Virus record (IMG/VR): IMGVR_UViG_3300043773_000274
Location: 1-41,313 of that record
Direction: 5' to 3' (one strand)
Source: a virus
Length of the DNA stretch: 41,313 bases
The position numbers were made by a program, and so were the translations under genes. The notes beneath the pieces were generated by a model. That model was not told where the DNA came from. It saw only the letters and a program-made list of their open reading frames with translations, and made no database searches. This document shows, piece by piece, positions 34,074 to 40,914 of this stretch; the stretch's first letter is position 1, and each line of letters begins with the position of its first letter.

Positions 34074-34087
34074 AAAACAATTGTTTT
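34074..34087. promoter_or_regulatory. 14-bp palindrome AAAACAATTGTTTT, operator candidate
   Basis: A perfect inverted repeat ends inside the -35 box (34086-34091) of the early promoter, the usual place for a repressor site. The half CAATTGTTT also occurs next to the promoter at 25.1 kb. Confidence 0.45.
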
Positions 34088-34115
34088 GACACTGTTTAAA
34101 TGCTACTGATATTAT
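34086..34115 (+). promoter_or_regulatory. strong early sigma70 promoter
   Basis: TTGACA (34086-34091, consensus) is followed by 18 bp and TATTAT (34110-34115), with TG one base before the -10. RNA would begin near 34122. It is the only consensus -35 seen and points toward the early operon. GTTTAAAT, one base from the dispersed motif, lies in the spacer at 34094-34101. Confidence 0.75.
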
Positions 34116-35494: not shown

Positions 35495-36073
35495 ATGACT
35501 ACAACCAACCGTGAAGACTGGCTGAACGCCGCCGTCTCTGAATTACGCCCCTTCTTCGGGGCAGTGGGCAAGCCCCTGCCAGCGAACGTACGTGTCACGT
35601 GCGGCTTCCCATCGAACGCCAAGCGCTCCGGTGCAATAGGTGAATGCTGGGCTGACACCGCCAGCGCAGACAAGACTTTCGAGGTTTTGATCAGCCCCGT
35701 GCTGGATGACCCAACAAAGGTGTTTGAAGTGCTGGTGCATGAGTTGTGCCATGCCACTGCTGGCGCTATGAATCACGGGGTCAACTTCCAAAAGGTAGGC
35801 AACCTGATGCACCTTGCCCCATCCCCTACCAAGGCTGGCTGGAAAGCCACGGGTAAGGCCGCAACCTTCGATTCGGTTTACGGCGAGATCATCAAGTCGC
35901 TTGATGCGTACCCCCATGCCGCCCTGTCGATGACTACCAAAAAGACTCAGGGCACTCGCATGCTGAAAGCGGTCTGCCCCTCTTGCGGGTACACCGTCAG
36001 GCTTACCAGCAAATGGGCCGCTCTTGGCCTCCCGTCCTGCCCACAGGACTCTGACATCCTTAACCTTGTTTAA
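35495..36073 (+). CDS. SprT-like zinc metalloprotease
   Basis: The 192-residue protein has the SprT zinc motif HELCH at residues 82-86 in VLVHELCHATAGAMNHGVNF, with a third histidine at the NHG position. A C-terminal ribbon has C161-x2-C164 (CPSCGY) and C182. SprT/Spartan proteases cut DNA-bound proteins in other organisms. The start has an AAGGAGAAAATGAA site. It stops with GTT TAA inside GTTTAAAC (36068). It precedes the AAA+ gene by 12 bp and may clear proteins from phage DNA or serve in the neighbouring module. Confidence 0.8.
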   Translation: MTTTNREDWLNAAVSELRPFFGAVGKPLPANVRVTCGFPSNAKRSGAIGECWADTASADKTFEVLISPVLDDPTKVFEVLVHELCHATAGAMNHGVNFQKVGNLMHLAPSPTKAGWKATGKAATFDSVYGEIIKSLDAYPHAALSMTTKKTQGTRMLKAVCPSCGYTVRLTSKWAALGLPSCPQDSDILNLV

Positions 36074-36085
36074 ACGGAGCACCTT

Positions 36086-37564
36086 ATGACTGACGCACAA
36101 ATCAAATTGAGAATTCTTGCCCTGCCCTTCGCTGTTGTGATGGCGGCGTATGCGGTGAGGAACACCACTGTGTTGCAAGGTACGGATTCGGAAATCAAGA
36201 GCCAAGCCGCCGATTTTCTGGTGGGTATGGTGCGTGACGGGTCTATTGATCTGAACGCCATTCGGGGCACTTCCCCAGCGCCTGTGATCAGCAACGTGTC
36301 CACAGGCTCAACCGCCGTGCTGGACAGTGTCGTGAGAGGCCAGAGCGCTGACCGCGCCGTGTTGGATGCGGTACGGGTTGTGGCAGATCGTGCCGCCAGT
36401 GATGCGCTGAAAGGGCTTAACAGCCACAACACGCTGACCCAGACCGTCTCCCGCGCCTTGGCGGCGCTGGAGCAGGACATCGAGGCCAACCGCCAGAACA
36501 TTGACCGCCTCGCAGTTTCCACGGTTGATGACCGTAAGGTTGCCGCTGAGGTTGCTCTGGCCATCGACAAGGCGTTTGCCCCGTTTAAACAGTCAGTGAT
36601 TGATGCTGGCGCTGAGGCGGTGATTGCCAACGGCGTGAGCGCCAAGGTGATTGGGTCTGAGACCGCCCTCAACGTGTTTGGCGTGGACGTCAAGGATGCC
36701 AAGGGCCAGCCCCTGATGGTTGACATCTGGGATGCCGTGGACGCACCAACCATTGACCCCAACTTCGTTTGGACTGAGGGCATCATCAAGCACCTGTTGC
36801 TTTCCCAAAACACGGGCGAAAACCTGTGGTTTGGCGGTGAAAAAGGGACTGGAAAGAGCGAGACCGCCCGTCAGTTTGCCGCCAAAACAGGCCGCGCCTA
36901 CACCCGCATCAACTTCCACAAGTACACCACGACAGAGGACTACGTGGGTTGCACGGGTCTGGAGAACAGCGCCACGGTGTTCAAAATGGGTGCGTTCATG
37001 ACTGGCTTTGTCTCGCCCTCGACTGTGGTTTTGCTGGACGAGGTCAGCAACTGCGATGCTGGCGAACTGGCTACCCTGAACGGGTTTCTGGAGCCTAACT
37101 CTGCCGTGAGTTTTGGTGGTCAGGTTCGCCGCCGTGCGGCTGGGGTGCTGGTGTTCGCCGCTGACAACACCCTGACAAACGGCGACCAGTCTGGACGCTA
37201 CGCTGGCACAAGGCAGATGAACTCCTCTCTGGCTGACCGCTTTTCACGGGTCATTCGCTTTGAGTACCTGTCCAAGGCTGACGAGGTGACTGCGCTGGTG
37301 AGGCATACCCAATGCAATGAACTGCTGGCTGGGCACGTTGTGGATGCCATCAATGCCGCCCGTGCCAAGGTTGAGACCGGAGACGTTATCGATGCCCCGT
37401 CCATCCGCTCTGCCATTGCTTTTATCCGCGCACTGAACGTGCTGTCTGTTGACGAGGCTTGGGCCTCAGCAGTTACCGCCCGTCAGCCTAGCGAAAGTGC
37501 CGCCGCTCTTGACGCAATCAAAGCGGCTTACCTCAACCCTGCTCAAATTGAGAAATGGATTTAA
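36086..37564 (+). CDS. MoxR/CobS-like AAA+ ATPase
   Basis: The 492-residue protein has an N-terminal helical region of about 220 residues, then an AAA+ domain. Walker A is GEKGTGKS (251-258) and Walker B VVLLDE with D318-E319. YTRINFHKYTTTEDYVG follows Walker A, and VLVFAADNTLTNGDQSGRYAG with MNSSLADRFSRVIRFEYL provides sensor/arginine-finger regions, as in MoxR/CobS ATPases. Those ATPases remodel targets with a VWA partner, here encoded two genes downstream. GTTTAAAC at 36583 encodes Phe-Lys. Confidence 0.85.
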   Translation: MTDAQIKLRILALPFAVVMAAYAVRNTTVLQGTDSEIKSQAADFLVGMVRDGSIDLNAIRGTSPAPVISNVSTGSTAVLDSVVRGQSADRAVLDAVRVVADRAASDALKGLNSHNTLTQTVSRALAALEQDIEANRQNIDRLAVSTVDDRKVAAEVALAIDKAFAPFKQSVIDAGAEAVIANGVSAKVIGSETALNVFGVDVKDAKGQPLMVDIWDAVDAPTIDPNFVWTEGIIKHLLLSQNTGENLWFGGEKGTGKSETARQFAAKTGRAYTRINFHKYTTTEDYVGCTGLENSATVFKMGAFMTGFVSPSTVVLLDEVSNCDAGELATLNGFLEPNSAVSFGGQVRRRAAGVLVFAADNTLTNGDQSGRYAGTRQMNSSLADRFSRVIRFEYLSKADEVTALVRHTQCNELLAGHVVDAINAARAKVETGDVIDAPSIRSAIAFIRALNVLSVDEAWASAVTARQPSESAAALDAIKAAYLNPAQIEKWI

Positions 37565-37566
37565 TC

Positions 37567-38475
37567 ATGCGTAAATATTTTGGCTGGGAATTCAAACCCG
37601 CACTGACTACCGCCATCCACAAGATGGCCTCTGACCTTTCGATTCGGAGCGTAAATGTCCAATTCAAAGAATGGATCCCTACGGCGGCTATCAACCGCAA
37701 CGGGCAGATCTACATCACCAACATCAAGGATGATGCGGTGATGAGCCAGCTTGAGTTGCAAAAATTCACAGGCTTTGGTCTGCATGAGTTACTGCACCGC
37801 AAGTTTACTGACTTCGACCAGATCGACACAAGCAAGTCACCCTACCTGATTGGTCTGCACAATGCGATTGAGGATGCCTACATCGAGAACCGCGCAGTGC
37901 GTCAGGCACTGACCGGAAACGCGCAGGGTCTGCTGGGTCTGCTGATCGACACAATGGCGAATCAAGCCCTTGTCGAGGTCAAGGATTGGTCTGACCCTAA
38001 GCAGTACCCGTTCGCCCTCGCGGTGTATGCGCGTAAGCATGGTCAAGTGCGCGTACCACTGGCAAAGGGTCTGCGTCCAATCTTTGACGAGGCTTGCTCC
38101 CGTCTTGAACAGGCGAACGGGACTGCTGACACGTGGAAGATTGCTGAGTGGGTCTACAAGCAACTGATGACCCCGACCCCGCCAGAGCCGCCCGTTGGCC
38201 CAACAGAGCCGCCGGATGGCCCTACAGAGCCTCCAGACGGCCCTACAGAGCCTTCAAATGACGAGGGTGAGGGTGACCCACAGGACGAGGCTGACGAGGG
38301 CACTGGCGAGGCCAAGACTCCGCGCCGCGCCAACGGTAAGGACGTGAACCCCCGCTCCACTGAGCCTGACGTGGATCTGCCCCCAGAGTCAAAAAGCGGC
38401 GGCGCTACCTCTGATACCGACATTCGCAAAGAGGGCTACCACGTTGACACAAAGCGTTGGACTATTTCAATCTAA
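37567..38475 (+). CDS. HELLH metallopeptidase-like partner of MoxR/VWA, acidic tail
   Basis: The 302-residue protein (ATG at 37567, 2 bp after the ATPase stop) has HELLH at 73-77 in FGLHELLHRKF and N-A-I-E-D-A-Y-I-E at 99-107. That pair recurs in metallopeptidase-like and CobT-like proteins working with VWA domains, and E102 could be the third zinc ligand. The second half is a Pro/Glu/Asp-rich linker containing three 7-residue GPTEPP(D)-type repeats and a basic end. CobT-like proteins fuse such a linker to a VWA domain; here the VWA is a separate gene. Catalysis is unproven. Confidence 0.65.
   Translation: MRKYFGWEFKPALTTAIHKMASDLSIRSVNVQFKEWIPTAAINRNGQIYITNIKDDAVMSQLELQKFTGFGLHELLHRKFTDFDQIDTSKSPYLIGLHNAIEDAYIENRAVRQALTGNAQGLLGLLIDTMANQALVEVKDWSDPKQYPFALAVYARKHGQVRVPLAKGLRPIFDEACSRLEQANGTADTWKIAEWVYKQLMTPTPPEPPVGPTEPPDGPTEPPDGPTEPSNDEGEGDPQDEADEGTGEAKTPRRANGKDVNPRSTEPDVDLPPESKSGGATSDTDIRKEGYHVDTKRWTISI
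38197..38259 (+). repeat. three 21-bp tandem repeats in the HELLH gene
   Basis: Three direct units of 21 bp (38197-38217, 38218-38238, 38239-38259) encode GPTEPPD, GPTEPPD and GPTEPSN. The copies differ mainly at synonymous sites, except the third. They lie in the flexible linker, where length change would be tolerated. Confidence 0.8.
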
Positions 38476-38484
38476 GGAGACCCC

Positions 38485-39141
38485 ATGATCCCCGCAAAAT
38501 TACGCTACGAAATTCGCAAGATGTTTGAGAACAGCGGCACTGAGGAATTCAACATCAACCGCCGCACTGGTTCACTCAACATCAACGCCCTATCAAACAT
38601 CGGGCATAGTGACCGCCTGTTTAAACGCCGACATGAGGTGGCTGGTGTTGACTCAGCGGTGACCATTGTGCTGGACTGTTCGGGTTCGATGGAGCACTTT
38701 AGACGCATGCCCAATGCCGTCAACGTCTGCTACGCCCTGCTGACTGTGCTTGCCGCCTCTGGTGTAGCTACCAGCGTAGTTACGTTCAACCATGTGGTCA
38801 GCGTTCTAAAGCCTTGGTCAATGCCAGTGCCGCGCACCAAGGCGTTGCTTGAGTGCGTCTCGCCCAGTGGCAATACGAACGATTACGCCGCCCTTTCCTA
38901 CGCTCACGGCATGCTGTTACGCCGCCCAGAGGCGCGAAAGGTTTGCTTTGTCCTGACTGATGGCGAGGGTGACCCTGATGCTACCCGCGCACAGTGCCTG
39001 TCCGGTGCAAAGCTGGGCGTGACAACGATAGGGGTTGGCATTCTGGAGGGCGTGGGCCATGTGTATCCCAACGCTGTCTACGTCAACAAGGTTGAAGACC
39101 TTGGCACGGTGGCATTCAACAAACTAAAACTTGCGGCGTGA
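38485..39141 (+). CDS. VWA-domain protein with MIDAS motif
   Basis: The 218-residue protein has the metal-binding MIDAS DCSGSME at residues 64-70, preceded by the strand DSAVTIVL. A downstream CFVLTDGEGDPDATRA gives the TDGEG element, and GNTNDYAAL lies in the middle. These are hallmarks of von Willebrand A domains, which in the MoxR/CobS-CobT group bind the AAA+ ring. It starts 9 bp after the HELLH stop, with TAAGGAGA as ribosome site overlapping that stop. GTTTAAAC (38619) encodes RLFKRR. Target of the complex unknown. Confidence 0.85.
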   Translation: MIPAKLRYEIRKMFENSGTEEFNINRRTGSLNINALSNIGHSDRLFKRRHEVAGVDSAVTIVLDCSGSMEHFRRMPNAVNVCYALLTVLAASGVATSVVTFNHVVSVLKPWSMPVPRTKALLECVSPSGNTNDYAALSYAHGMLLRRPEARKVCFVLTDGEGDPDATRAQCLSGAKLGVTTIGVGILEGVGHVYPNAVYVNKVEDLGTVAFNKLKLAA

Positions 39142-39164: not shown

Positions 39165-39416
39165 ATGAAAACACTGAACGAACTACGCGCCTTCTGCGAG
39201 GGCTACCGCTTTGGGCTTGTCAACGATCTGACCAATGAACTGGCTGGGCTTGACGATTGGATCGTTTGGGGAGACTACGACATCAACTTGTCGGGGTGCG
39301 AGGTCTCAGGCCACGCCAAAGAAGAAACCGATCTGCATGTGAACGCATACCCCGCCAACTGGGTGGACAACCTGCCCGAACCCATCCACAGTTTCACAAT
39401 AGGAGAAACAGCATGA
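39165..39416 (+). CDS. small early protein of unknown function
   Basis: The 83-residue protein begins MKTLNELRAFCEGYRFGLVND at 39165, with AGGAGAAATGAA just ahead; the longer frame upstream lies in the VWA gene. It has an N-terminal helix, then DDWIVWGDYDINLSGCEVSGHAK. No family was recognised. It overlaps the following ATG as ATGA, so translation is coupled. Confidence 0.6.
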   Translation: MKTLNELRAFCEGYRFGLVNDLTNELAGLDDWIVWGDYDINLSGCEVSGHAKEETDLHVNAYPANWVDNLPEPIHSFTIGETA

Positions 39417-39595
39417 AGACTTATCAAATTGAATTGAAACGCACCAGCTACATCAACGTCACCGTGGAGGCCAACAACGTGGAAGAGGCAGAGCAACTGG
39501 CATGGGATGAATTGCAATCGGACGGGTCTTACGAGTTGACCTATGCCGACTGGGAGATTGAGTCCATCGAACTAGATCAAGGAGATACAGAATGA
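39413..39595 (+). CDS. small beta-alpha early protein
   Basis: The 60-residue protein (MKTYQIELKRTSYINVTVEANNVEEAEQLAWDELQSDG…) has a strand-strand-helix pattern with a NVEEAEQLAWDEL helix. It is close to a short phage family that carries 'V.A....EAE..A' in the same place. It overlaps both neighbours by 4 bp. Function is not known. Confidence 0.6.
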   Translation: MKTYQIELKRTSYINVTVEANNVEEAEQLAWDELQSDGSYELTYADWEIESIELDQGDTE

Positions 39596-39780
39596 AAAAA
39601 GGCGACAACATTGTGGTCATCATTGATGGCAAGATCAGAGGCGCGGAAGTTATTGCGGTGCTGGCTGATGGCAGGATAGAAACATCCCTTAAGACGTATG
39701 ACGGGGATAACGCGAGAGTGGATCGTCACAAGGCGTTCACCGACTCCGAATGGGATCTGGTCAAAGGAGAATTTTTATGA
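39592..39780 (+). CDS. small beta-barrel-like early protein
   Basis: The 62-residue protein (MKKGDNIVVIIDGKIRGAEVIAVLADGRIETSL…) has short strands and turns like a small SH3-like barrel. It begins at an ATGA overlap and ends at another. Similar small barrels in phages bind nucleic acid or proteins; no specific function can be assigned. Confidence 0.55.
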   Translation: MKKGDNIVVIIDGKIRGAEVIAVLADGRIETSLKTYDGDNARVDRHKAFTDSEWDLVKGEFL

Positions 39781-40088
39781 AAACAACTGAACTGACAGGC
39801 ATAGCCCTTGATTGGGCGGTGGCGAAGTGTGCCGACCTTCCTTTTCCCATAGTTTATGACGAGGACGGGCGCAAAGTTTTAGTGTCCCCATCTACCAATT
39901 GGGCACAAGGTGGGCCGATTATTGAGCGGGAGATGATAGACCTCAAATGCTTGCCCACCAAGCAAGGCGGGTTTATTTGGCGTACGGCTTGTGCAGACGG
40001 CCCAACACCCCTTATCGCCGCAATGAGATGCTATGTGGCGAGCAAGTTGGGTGATGAGGTTGAGATACCGGAGGAATTAAATGTTTAA
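39777..40088 (+). CDS. ninX: NinX-like protein (DUF2591)
   Basis: The 103-residue protein matches the P22 NinX / DUF2591 pattern: TTELTGIALDWAVAKC at the N-terminus, SPSTNWAQGGPIIERE in the middle and GPTPLIAAMRCYVASKLGDEVEIP at the end. Function is unknown in P22, where it lies in the nin region; here it is also early. The start overlaps the previous stop as ATGA. The stop codon is the TAA of GTTTAAAC (40083), and the next ATG (40081) lies inside its end. Confidence 0.85.
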   Translation: MKTTELTGIALDWAVAKCADLPFPIVYDEDGRKVLVSPSTNWAQGGPIIEREMIDLKCLPTKQGGFIWRTACADGPTPLIAAMRCYVASKLGDEVEIPEELNV

Positions 40089-40870: not shown

Positions 40871-40914
40871 GAGGGGGGGGTGAAGCAATGACTTCATCCC
40901 CCCTCCCTTTTTTT
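40871..40914 (+). terminator. terminator of the early operon, probably bidirectional
   Basis: A GC-rich stem (GAGGGGGG…TGAAG / CTTCATCCCCCCTC, with two unpaired G) encloses a 6-nt loop and is followed by seven T (40908-40914). On the minus strand it is followed by TTTATTTC, so it may also end the convergent helicase transcript. Confidence 0.8.

Follow-up and report, generated by a model that had tools for sequence, protein, structure and literature searches.

RavA-ViaA and midasin, like the gene set described here, combine an AAA+ ATPase of the MoxR/midasin clade with a von Willebrand factor A (VWA) partner that carries a metal-ion-dependent adhesion site (MIDAS); to our knowledge they contain no peptidase domain. 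Closer counterparts are found in tailed viruses, where an AAA+ gene adjoining a gene for a CobT-like VWA protein is known as cobST (PMC8651126; PHROG_249, PHROG_1576, PHROG_17276). These were reported as vitamin B12 genes and their 'peptidase' annotation was called a mis-annotation; a second study (PMC9503304) also reads phage genes as B12 genes and the peptidase annotation as a mistake, while a third (PMC11288001) describes what cobS does in phages as still uncertain. The same three domains occur in group 2.2 jumbo phages (PMC7824862), where the N-terminal domain has, as here, been read as a metallopeptidase. Among cellular systems, CobS-CobT (PDB 9uka, 21vt; TIGR01650, TIGR01651) has a homologous ATPase, VWA/MIDAS domain and N-terminal domain with an acidic linker, and the MoxR-vWA ternary conflict systems (PMC7159879) are built on the same MoxR and vWA core. 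Here we describe a gene set of this kind in the IMG/VR virus record IMGVR_UViG_3300043773_000274, which at its full 41,313 bases is the window of this analysis. Four consecutive + strand open reading frames (ORFs) at 35495-39141 encode, in this order, an SprT-like zincin, a MoxR/CobS-type AAA+ ATPase, a protein with a HELLH motif and a MIDAS VWA protein.

The set belongs to a kind already described, as 'cobST' in tailed viruses or as a MoxR-vWA system that has a metallopeptidase at the N-terminus, and is a variant with an SprT-like subunit and a split CobT. What is new here is the status of the HExxH site, the loss of the SprT site in 19 of 87 modules under constraint, and the position opposite the virion block near replication and recombination genes. 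We read the four genes, with a probability of about 0.52, as an early phage ATP-driven protein-remodelling machine, probably proteolytic, and not a cobaltochelatase. An original prediction, made from the letters of the window, had placed the four genes in this region with the motifs given below. Its observation is confirmed and its interpretation, a MoxR-VWA machine acting on host targets or on metal cofactors, is partly supported.

Relatives were collected by scanning IMG/VR with the AAA+ protein (31 loci), with a profile of the fused CobT-like protein and with an SprT profile, which gave 91 distinct modules. The HELLH protein (37555..38475, + strand, 306 amino acids) has a predicted gluzincin-like domain followed by an acidic and Pro-rich linker (about residues 206-306). 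Its site residues are H77, E78, H81, N103, E106, D107 and E111 (motifs HELLH and NAIED); the H73/E74 of the original prediction fit a start at ATG 37567 and equal H77/E78 counted from ATG 37555. All seven residues are invariant in 24 of 24 aligned relatives, and the HExxH...NxxED site is intact in each of the 90 distinct family modules long enough to show it. The site also aligns with that of phage CobT proteins; 12 further 'CobT' proteins, from other phages or phage-plasmids, were checked, and 11 have it intact. HExxH is present in those of Vibrio phage ICP2, phage T5S1, a Rhizobium phage, a Microcystis phage, a cyanophage (annotated 'peptidase'), halovirus HCTV-1, Rhodococcus phage Mbo2, CRP-810, Gordonia phage Jumbo, and phage-plasmid-type plasmids of E. 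coli and Klebsiella. Cellular CobT, in contrast, has no HExxH, with AFALR (Sphingomonas) and SMALR (Methylobacterium) at the aligned site; this comparison is of two sequences read directly, the solved CobT aligning downstream of the site only. The Pfam CobT N-domain PF06213 recognises the HExxH-bearing protein of an E. coli element (3e-27), and the phage and cellular N-domains are therefore homologous. As far as alignment goes, an intact HExxH is the conserved state of phage CobT-like proteins, whereas the cobST study (PMC8651126) dismissed the peptidase label.

The two partners of this protein are clear relatives of CobS and CobT, as had been predicted. The AAA+ ATPase (36086..37564, + strand, 492 amino acids) has a Walker A motif at residues 250-258 (GEKGTGKS), a Walker B motif at 314-319 (VVLLDE), N361 and R385, preceded by its own N-terminal region of about 220 amino acids. 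Its Walker and Arg residues are invariant in 20 relatives. It matches Pfam AAA_5 (2.5e-13), PHROG_249 ('porphyrin biosynthesis', cyanophage CobS; 4e-33) and CobS TIGR01650 (3e-13), the last with 49.7 bits against an equivalog cut-off of 558.55, and the solved relatives that lead by sequence in the PDB are Midasin (5e-15) and CobS (1e-11). The VWA protein (38485..39141, + strand, 218 amino acids), corresponding to the C-terminal half of CobT, has a complete MIDAS (DCSGSM, GNTND, TDG) and matches Pfam CobT_C (7e-10) and VWA_2 (9e-10); the MIDAS residues are invariant across fused homologues. The CobT equivalog score is 23.5 bits against a cut-off of 759.05.

This kinship is the ground for reading such genes as an auxiliary cobaltochelatase, in which phage CobS and CobT would join host CobN, insert cobalt and boost cobalamin for host nucleotide metabolism. 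The homology of the AAA+ and CobT-like proteins to CobS and CobT favours that reading, which was put forward for tailed viruses of archaea (PMC8651126), taken up again for Microcystis phage Mae-Yong1326-1 (PMC9503304) and also raised for Roseobacter phage CRP-810, where the function was called uncertain (PMC11288001). However, the phage versions retain the HExxH that cellular CobT does not have, and they miss the equivalog cut-offs by far (for CobS, 50 against 559 bits). CobN was found in none of nine family records and ten other phages and plasmids, the search covering these records and not the host of the window phage, and no ribonucleotide reductase was found in the family records. Related pairs reside on E. 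coli and Klebsiella elements, and an E. coli control genome has no CobN. Chelation also offers no part for SprT. The case against a cobaltochelatase is strong but not final, and we hold that function to be improbable; the metal-cofactor role suggested in the original prediction found no support.

The fold predicted for the HELLH protein points towards peptidases, at weak significance. No Pfam family matched the ORF. In an AlphaFold2 model, residues 5-205 mostly have a predicted local distance difference test score (pLDDT) of about 90, and the linker is disordered. Foldseek against viral models in BFVD returned phage CobT/VWFA proteins at E-values from 1.8e-10 to 1e-3, so that the similarity to CobT/VWA families anticipated in the original prediction is borne out; a comparison of the model with phage CobT gave 1.6e-6. 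Against the PDB, selecase, abylysin and M1 aminopeptidases led, all weakly (best E = 0.06), and these modelled matches suggest, weakly, gluzincin-type metallopeptidases. PDB sequence searches with the HELLH profile alone yielded low-complexity or chance matches only. The profile of the fused family, by comparison, matched the solved CobT 9uka at 2.6e-20, its LHNAVEDAWIE stretch aligning with IFDAVEQARVE of CobT. Profile and model together identify the HELLH protein as the N-terminal half of a CobT-like protein.

The division of this CobT-like protein into two ORFs, also foreseen in the original prediction, holds in the light of its relatives. PHROG_1576 matches the HELLH and VWA ORFs alike, and fused homologues therefore exist; most relatives have them. 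The two ORFs meet at a fission junction (38473..38487, + strand; TAAGGAGACCCCATG) in which the HELLH stop codon overlaps the VWA Shine-Dalgarno sequence (TAAGGAG...ATG). The junction is of the TAAGG type in seven of eight split relatives and TGAGG in locus L014, and the frame of the second ORF relative to the first varies among them (0, 1 or 2). Because of this overlap and the varying frame, HELLH and VWA are two real proteins. Joining them by readthrough or frameshifting was ruled out by the varying frame and by the Shine-Dalgarno sequence that each junction has of its own, and a sequencing error was ruled out by the recurrence of the same split in several independent contigs. The window clade (L002, L003, L006-L011, L014) as well as L090 and L098 have two separate genes, whereas most others have a fused one. 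On the AAA tree the split and fused states require two changes, and the split is a derived variant. L090 and L098, on a distant branch of the family, represent a second, separate split. A split cobT has already been recorded in the archaeal virus HHTV-2 (PMC8651126); the split seen here has its own junction. In group 2.2 jumbo phages, by contrast, the vWA domain is fused to the metallopeptidase.

The first gene of the set (35495..36073, + strand) encodes an SprT-like zincin of 192 amino acids with HELCH at residues 82-86, H94 and a C-terminal Cys ribbon (C161/C164/C182, CPxC...C), so that the HExxH, the downstream His and the zinc ribbon are all present. Spartan, an SprT-like metallopeptidase, cleaves proteins bound to DNA. 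It matches PHROG_6361 at 5e-39, and Pfam SprT-like PF10263 at 9e-4 with a score of 19.5, under the cut-off of 25.6. The AlphaFold2 model (pLDDT 81) had proabylysin as its top Foldseek match (probability 0.94, but E = 0.024), and the modelled fold is zincin-like. A PDB sequence search with the SprT profile alone gave low-complexity or chance matches only. The protein belongs to a phage family of SprT-like proteases (PHROG_6361; 163 GenBank phage records), and it is about 36-44% identical over nearly its whole length to those of Microbacterium and Arthrobacter phages. In GardenState, the one neighbourhood read, the SprT gene stands alone near primase and polymerase genes in a genome without the AAA, whereas here it is tied to AAA-VWA. 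SprT adjoins AAA in 170 of 170 loci with room for both (30/31, 74/79 and 66/70 by query, the remainder cut by contig ends); the loci are not all independent, several contigs having been fetched by more than one query, and finding a locus with the CobT-like query introduces no bias towards SprT, nor the reverse. Such constant adjacency differs from the cobST of PMC8651126; in the cobST virus HCTV-1 the SprT gene lies four genes upstream of AAA.

Whether SprT is a working protease, as had been predicted, has a divided answer, since the catalytic site is intact in the window but has been lost from the homologue of roughly one relative in five. The residues H82, E83, H86 and H94 (window numbering) are complete in 68 of 87 modules. 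In the other 19, E83 is gone every time, with Gln in its place in 18, and most of the His residues, notably the third, are gone as well; unless truncated, these copies retain the ribbon Cys residues and a YPH motif. The ratio of nonsynonymous to synonymous substitution rates (dN/dS) is 0.06-0.21 in pairs of dead copies; these copies are under purifying selection. A further difference from the PHROG_6361 phage family is that the subunit of the present family is catalytically dead in some lineages.

By its SprT the window falls with the active copies from the fused clade (79-82% identity), but by its AAA, HELLH and VWA it falls with the dead-SprT clade (75% identity in VWA, 45-47% in SprT). Since SprT groups differently from its three neighbours, lineages have probably exchanged its gene, and related partners probably work with either an active or a dead form, as far as these sequence groupings tell. 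The conflicting similarity pattern was seen at window positions 35495-36073 and in L006-L011, L014, L028, L029 and L031. Changes at the active site number eight on the AAA tree and four on the SprT tree, and a single dead clade is not rejected on the latter (p = 0.26). Many independent losses were therefore set aside, gene exchange accounting for the pattern at least equally well.

To the extent that their contigs cover it, all 31 AAA relatives share the order SprT-AAA-HELLH-VWA, at 35-98% identity, and the arrangement is therefore not due to chance; the original prediction had made this order in related phages a test of its claim. All four genes are under purifying selection (dN/dS 0.01-0.38 across all pairs and genes tested). 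This constraint bears on the proposal, put forward in the original prediction, of a machine for host takeover or counter-defence, which would unfold or cleave proteins of the host or of defence systems. A probable early position would suit that role, cellular conflict systems use MoxR-vWA cores (PMC7159879), the AAA+ ORF just passes the cut-off of bpMoxR PF20030 (27.8 bits against 27), and an action on host proteins has been suggested for SprT homologues of jumbo phages (PMC7824862). Turnover is usually fast in conflict genes, however, and this module, although lineages exchange its SprT gene, is strictly kept, at dN/dS values under 0.4. PADLOC gave weak AAA matches only, and no match pointed to a specific family of defence or anti-defence proteins. 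Unlike the ternary conflict systems, the present module is phage-borne and has no VMAP, iSTAND, FtsH or beta-propeller component, none of these domains appearing in the four proteins or the neighbouring ORFs scanned. We regard host takeover or counter-defence as the likeliest of the rival explanations, ahead of virion assembly and, last, chelation, while still considering it doubtful.

Virion assembly is the role proposed for group 2.2 jumbo phages by analogy with Acidianus two-tailed virus (PMC7824862); a MoxR-vWA with a metallopeptidase domain would act as a chaperone-protease that assembles and trims structural proteins. The architecture there, AAA plus metallopeptidase-vWA, is the same, and a module that is core to the family fits an essential function. 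Against this, the virion genes of the window (terminase, portal, head) lie on the - strand and the four-gene set lies beyond the terminase on the + strand. Reading the neighbourhoods of the pair in 12 other phages and elements showed no annotated virion gene beside it. Among cultured phages, those closest in terminase (51-58%) are the Pelagibacter phages HTVC027P and HTVC023P together with 023Pt_psg01 and DSL-LC04; AAA is absent from the last two, so that related virions are built without it. Among 12 larger relatives the terminase is 77-97% identical, and they therefore make up one phage group. An assembly role seems unlikely to us. The present module differs from that of the jumbo phages also in lying near replication genes, opposite the virion genes, and in having an SprT-like subunit.

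The remodelling machine that we favour finds some support in what surrounds such pairs. In a near-identical relative (G001) the module is followed downstream by genes for a primase/helicase, for an exonuclease and for an annealing protein of the Sak type. The AAA/CobT-like pair lies near primase, helicase and polymerase genes in ICP2 and T5S1, near PolIII alpha in the Rhizobium phage and near gp46, gp45 and gp44 in the cyanophage, and dnaE adjoins it in the E. coli and Klebsiella elements. Early expression, as originally proposed, is plausible on indirect grounds: the set and the virion genes lie on different strands, a near-consensus candidate promoter stands at 34086, and the neighbours serve replication and recombination. 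That candidate sigma-70-like promoter for the + strand early cluster (34086..34115, + strand; TTGACA-18-TATTAT with TG, 11/12 match) is only suggestive as its start. Promoter-like sites over the region are no more numerous than in shuffled sequences, and the closest relatives, L002 and L003, have no recognisable counterpart of it. In L012, L015, L019 and L027 a similar element precedes SprT by 1.1-1.8 kb; conservation of an early promoter across the family, which was considered, is only partly seen.

Downstream, a strong hairpin resembling an intrinsic terminator (40873..40904, + strand; 13 pairs, 8 of them G-C, followed by CCCTTTTTTT) is a candidate end of the cluster. Such hairpins, too, are no more numerous than in shuffled sequences; promoter and hairpin could bound a transcript. 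Between the module and this hairpin are genes for a DpnD/PcfM-like small protein (39407-39592; PF14207, 2e-4) and a NinX-like protein (39777-40085; PF10765, 1.8e-17). The contig of G001 is 63,406 bases long and repeats about 4.1 kb at its ends (L040 15810-19907, L041 1-4098), and because of this overlap its genome, of about 59.3 kb, is probably complete. It also encodes a 214-amino-acid protein (L041 6358-7002) that matches PHROG_3704 ('ferredoxin', 2.9e-75) and a 2918-amino-acid - strand ORF (L041 8196-16952), which may encode a large protein of the virion or one that is injected. A pattern scan of genome contigs for bacterial or prophage copies gave 79 pattern matches and no relative. CobT-like matches were found in 757 plasmid records, mainly of Klebsiella, E. 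coli and Acinetobacter. The records opened were 109-121 kb long; they are putative phage-plasmids and resemble SSU5-like elements.

In the mechanism that we propose, the AAA+ protein would form a ring on which the MIDAS of the VWA protein docks, coupling ATP hydrolysis to the pulling of a bound protein, as in midasin or CobS-CobT. The HELLH domain would cleave or grip the pulled protein, and the SprT-like ribbon protein would recognise the substrate, possibly on DNA. Because the latter is proposed to recognise the substrate, its protease site could be dispensable. The machine would probably act early, near phage replication and recombination. Several points weigh against this proposal. Proteolysis is read from motifs and from a predicted fold with weak PDB E-values (best 0.06), and the recognition role of SprT is a guess. 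In the CobT-like protein encoded on a plasmid from Acinetobacter baumannii (L197 4388-6310), QEVAK replaces HExxH, an apparent loss of the site, and cleavage is therefore not essential everywhere. A Pfam search did not find SprT in nine of ten other cobST phages and elements, HCTV-1 being the exception, and SprT is therefore a family-specific addition. Mbo2 and Gordonia Jumbo have no clear replication genes near the pair, and the proximity of the module to replication genes, seen by reading neighbourhoods, could reflect simple clustering of early genes.

Many phage surveys list cobS and cobT as auxiliary metabolic genes, and cobalamin roles are argued from the label. The present data give a direct reason to re-read these genes: an intact protease site, none in the true chelatase, no CobN, and related pairs on E. 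coli elements. More tentatively than for the window itself, and somewhat short of an even chance, we suggest that the 'cobST' of many unrelated tailed phages and phage-plasmids may be one ancient replication-associated AAA+/gluzincin remodelling protease rather than B12 genes, with the N-domain of cellular CobT as its catalytically dead relative. The present family would have gained an interchangeable SprT-like subunit, able to become a pseudoprotease while the machine persists. One conserved cassette mixes an invariant catalytic site (HELLH) with a dispensable one (SprT), which guides the choice of residues to mutate first. Of greatest use among these results is a concrete argument against taking phage cobST for B12 genes.

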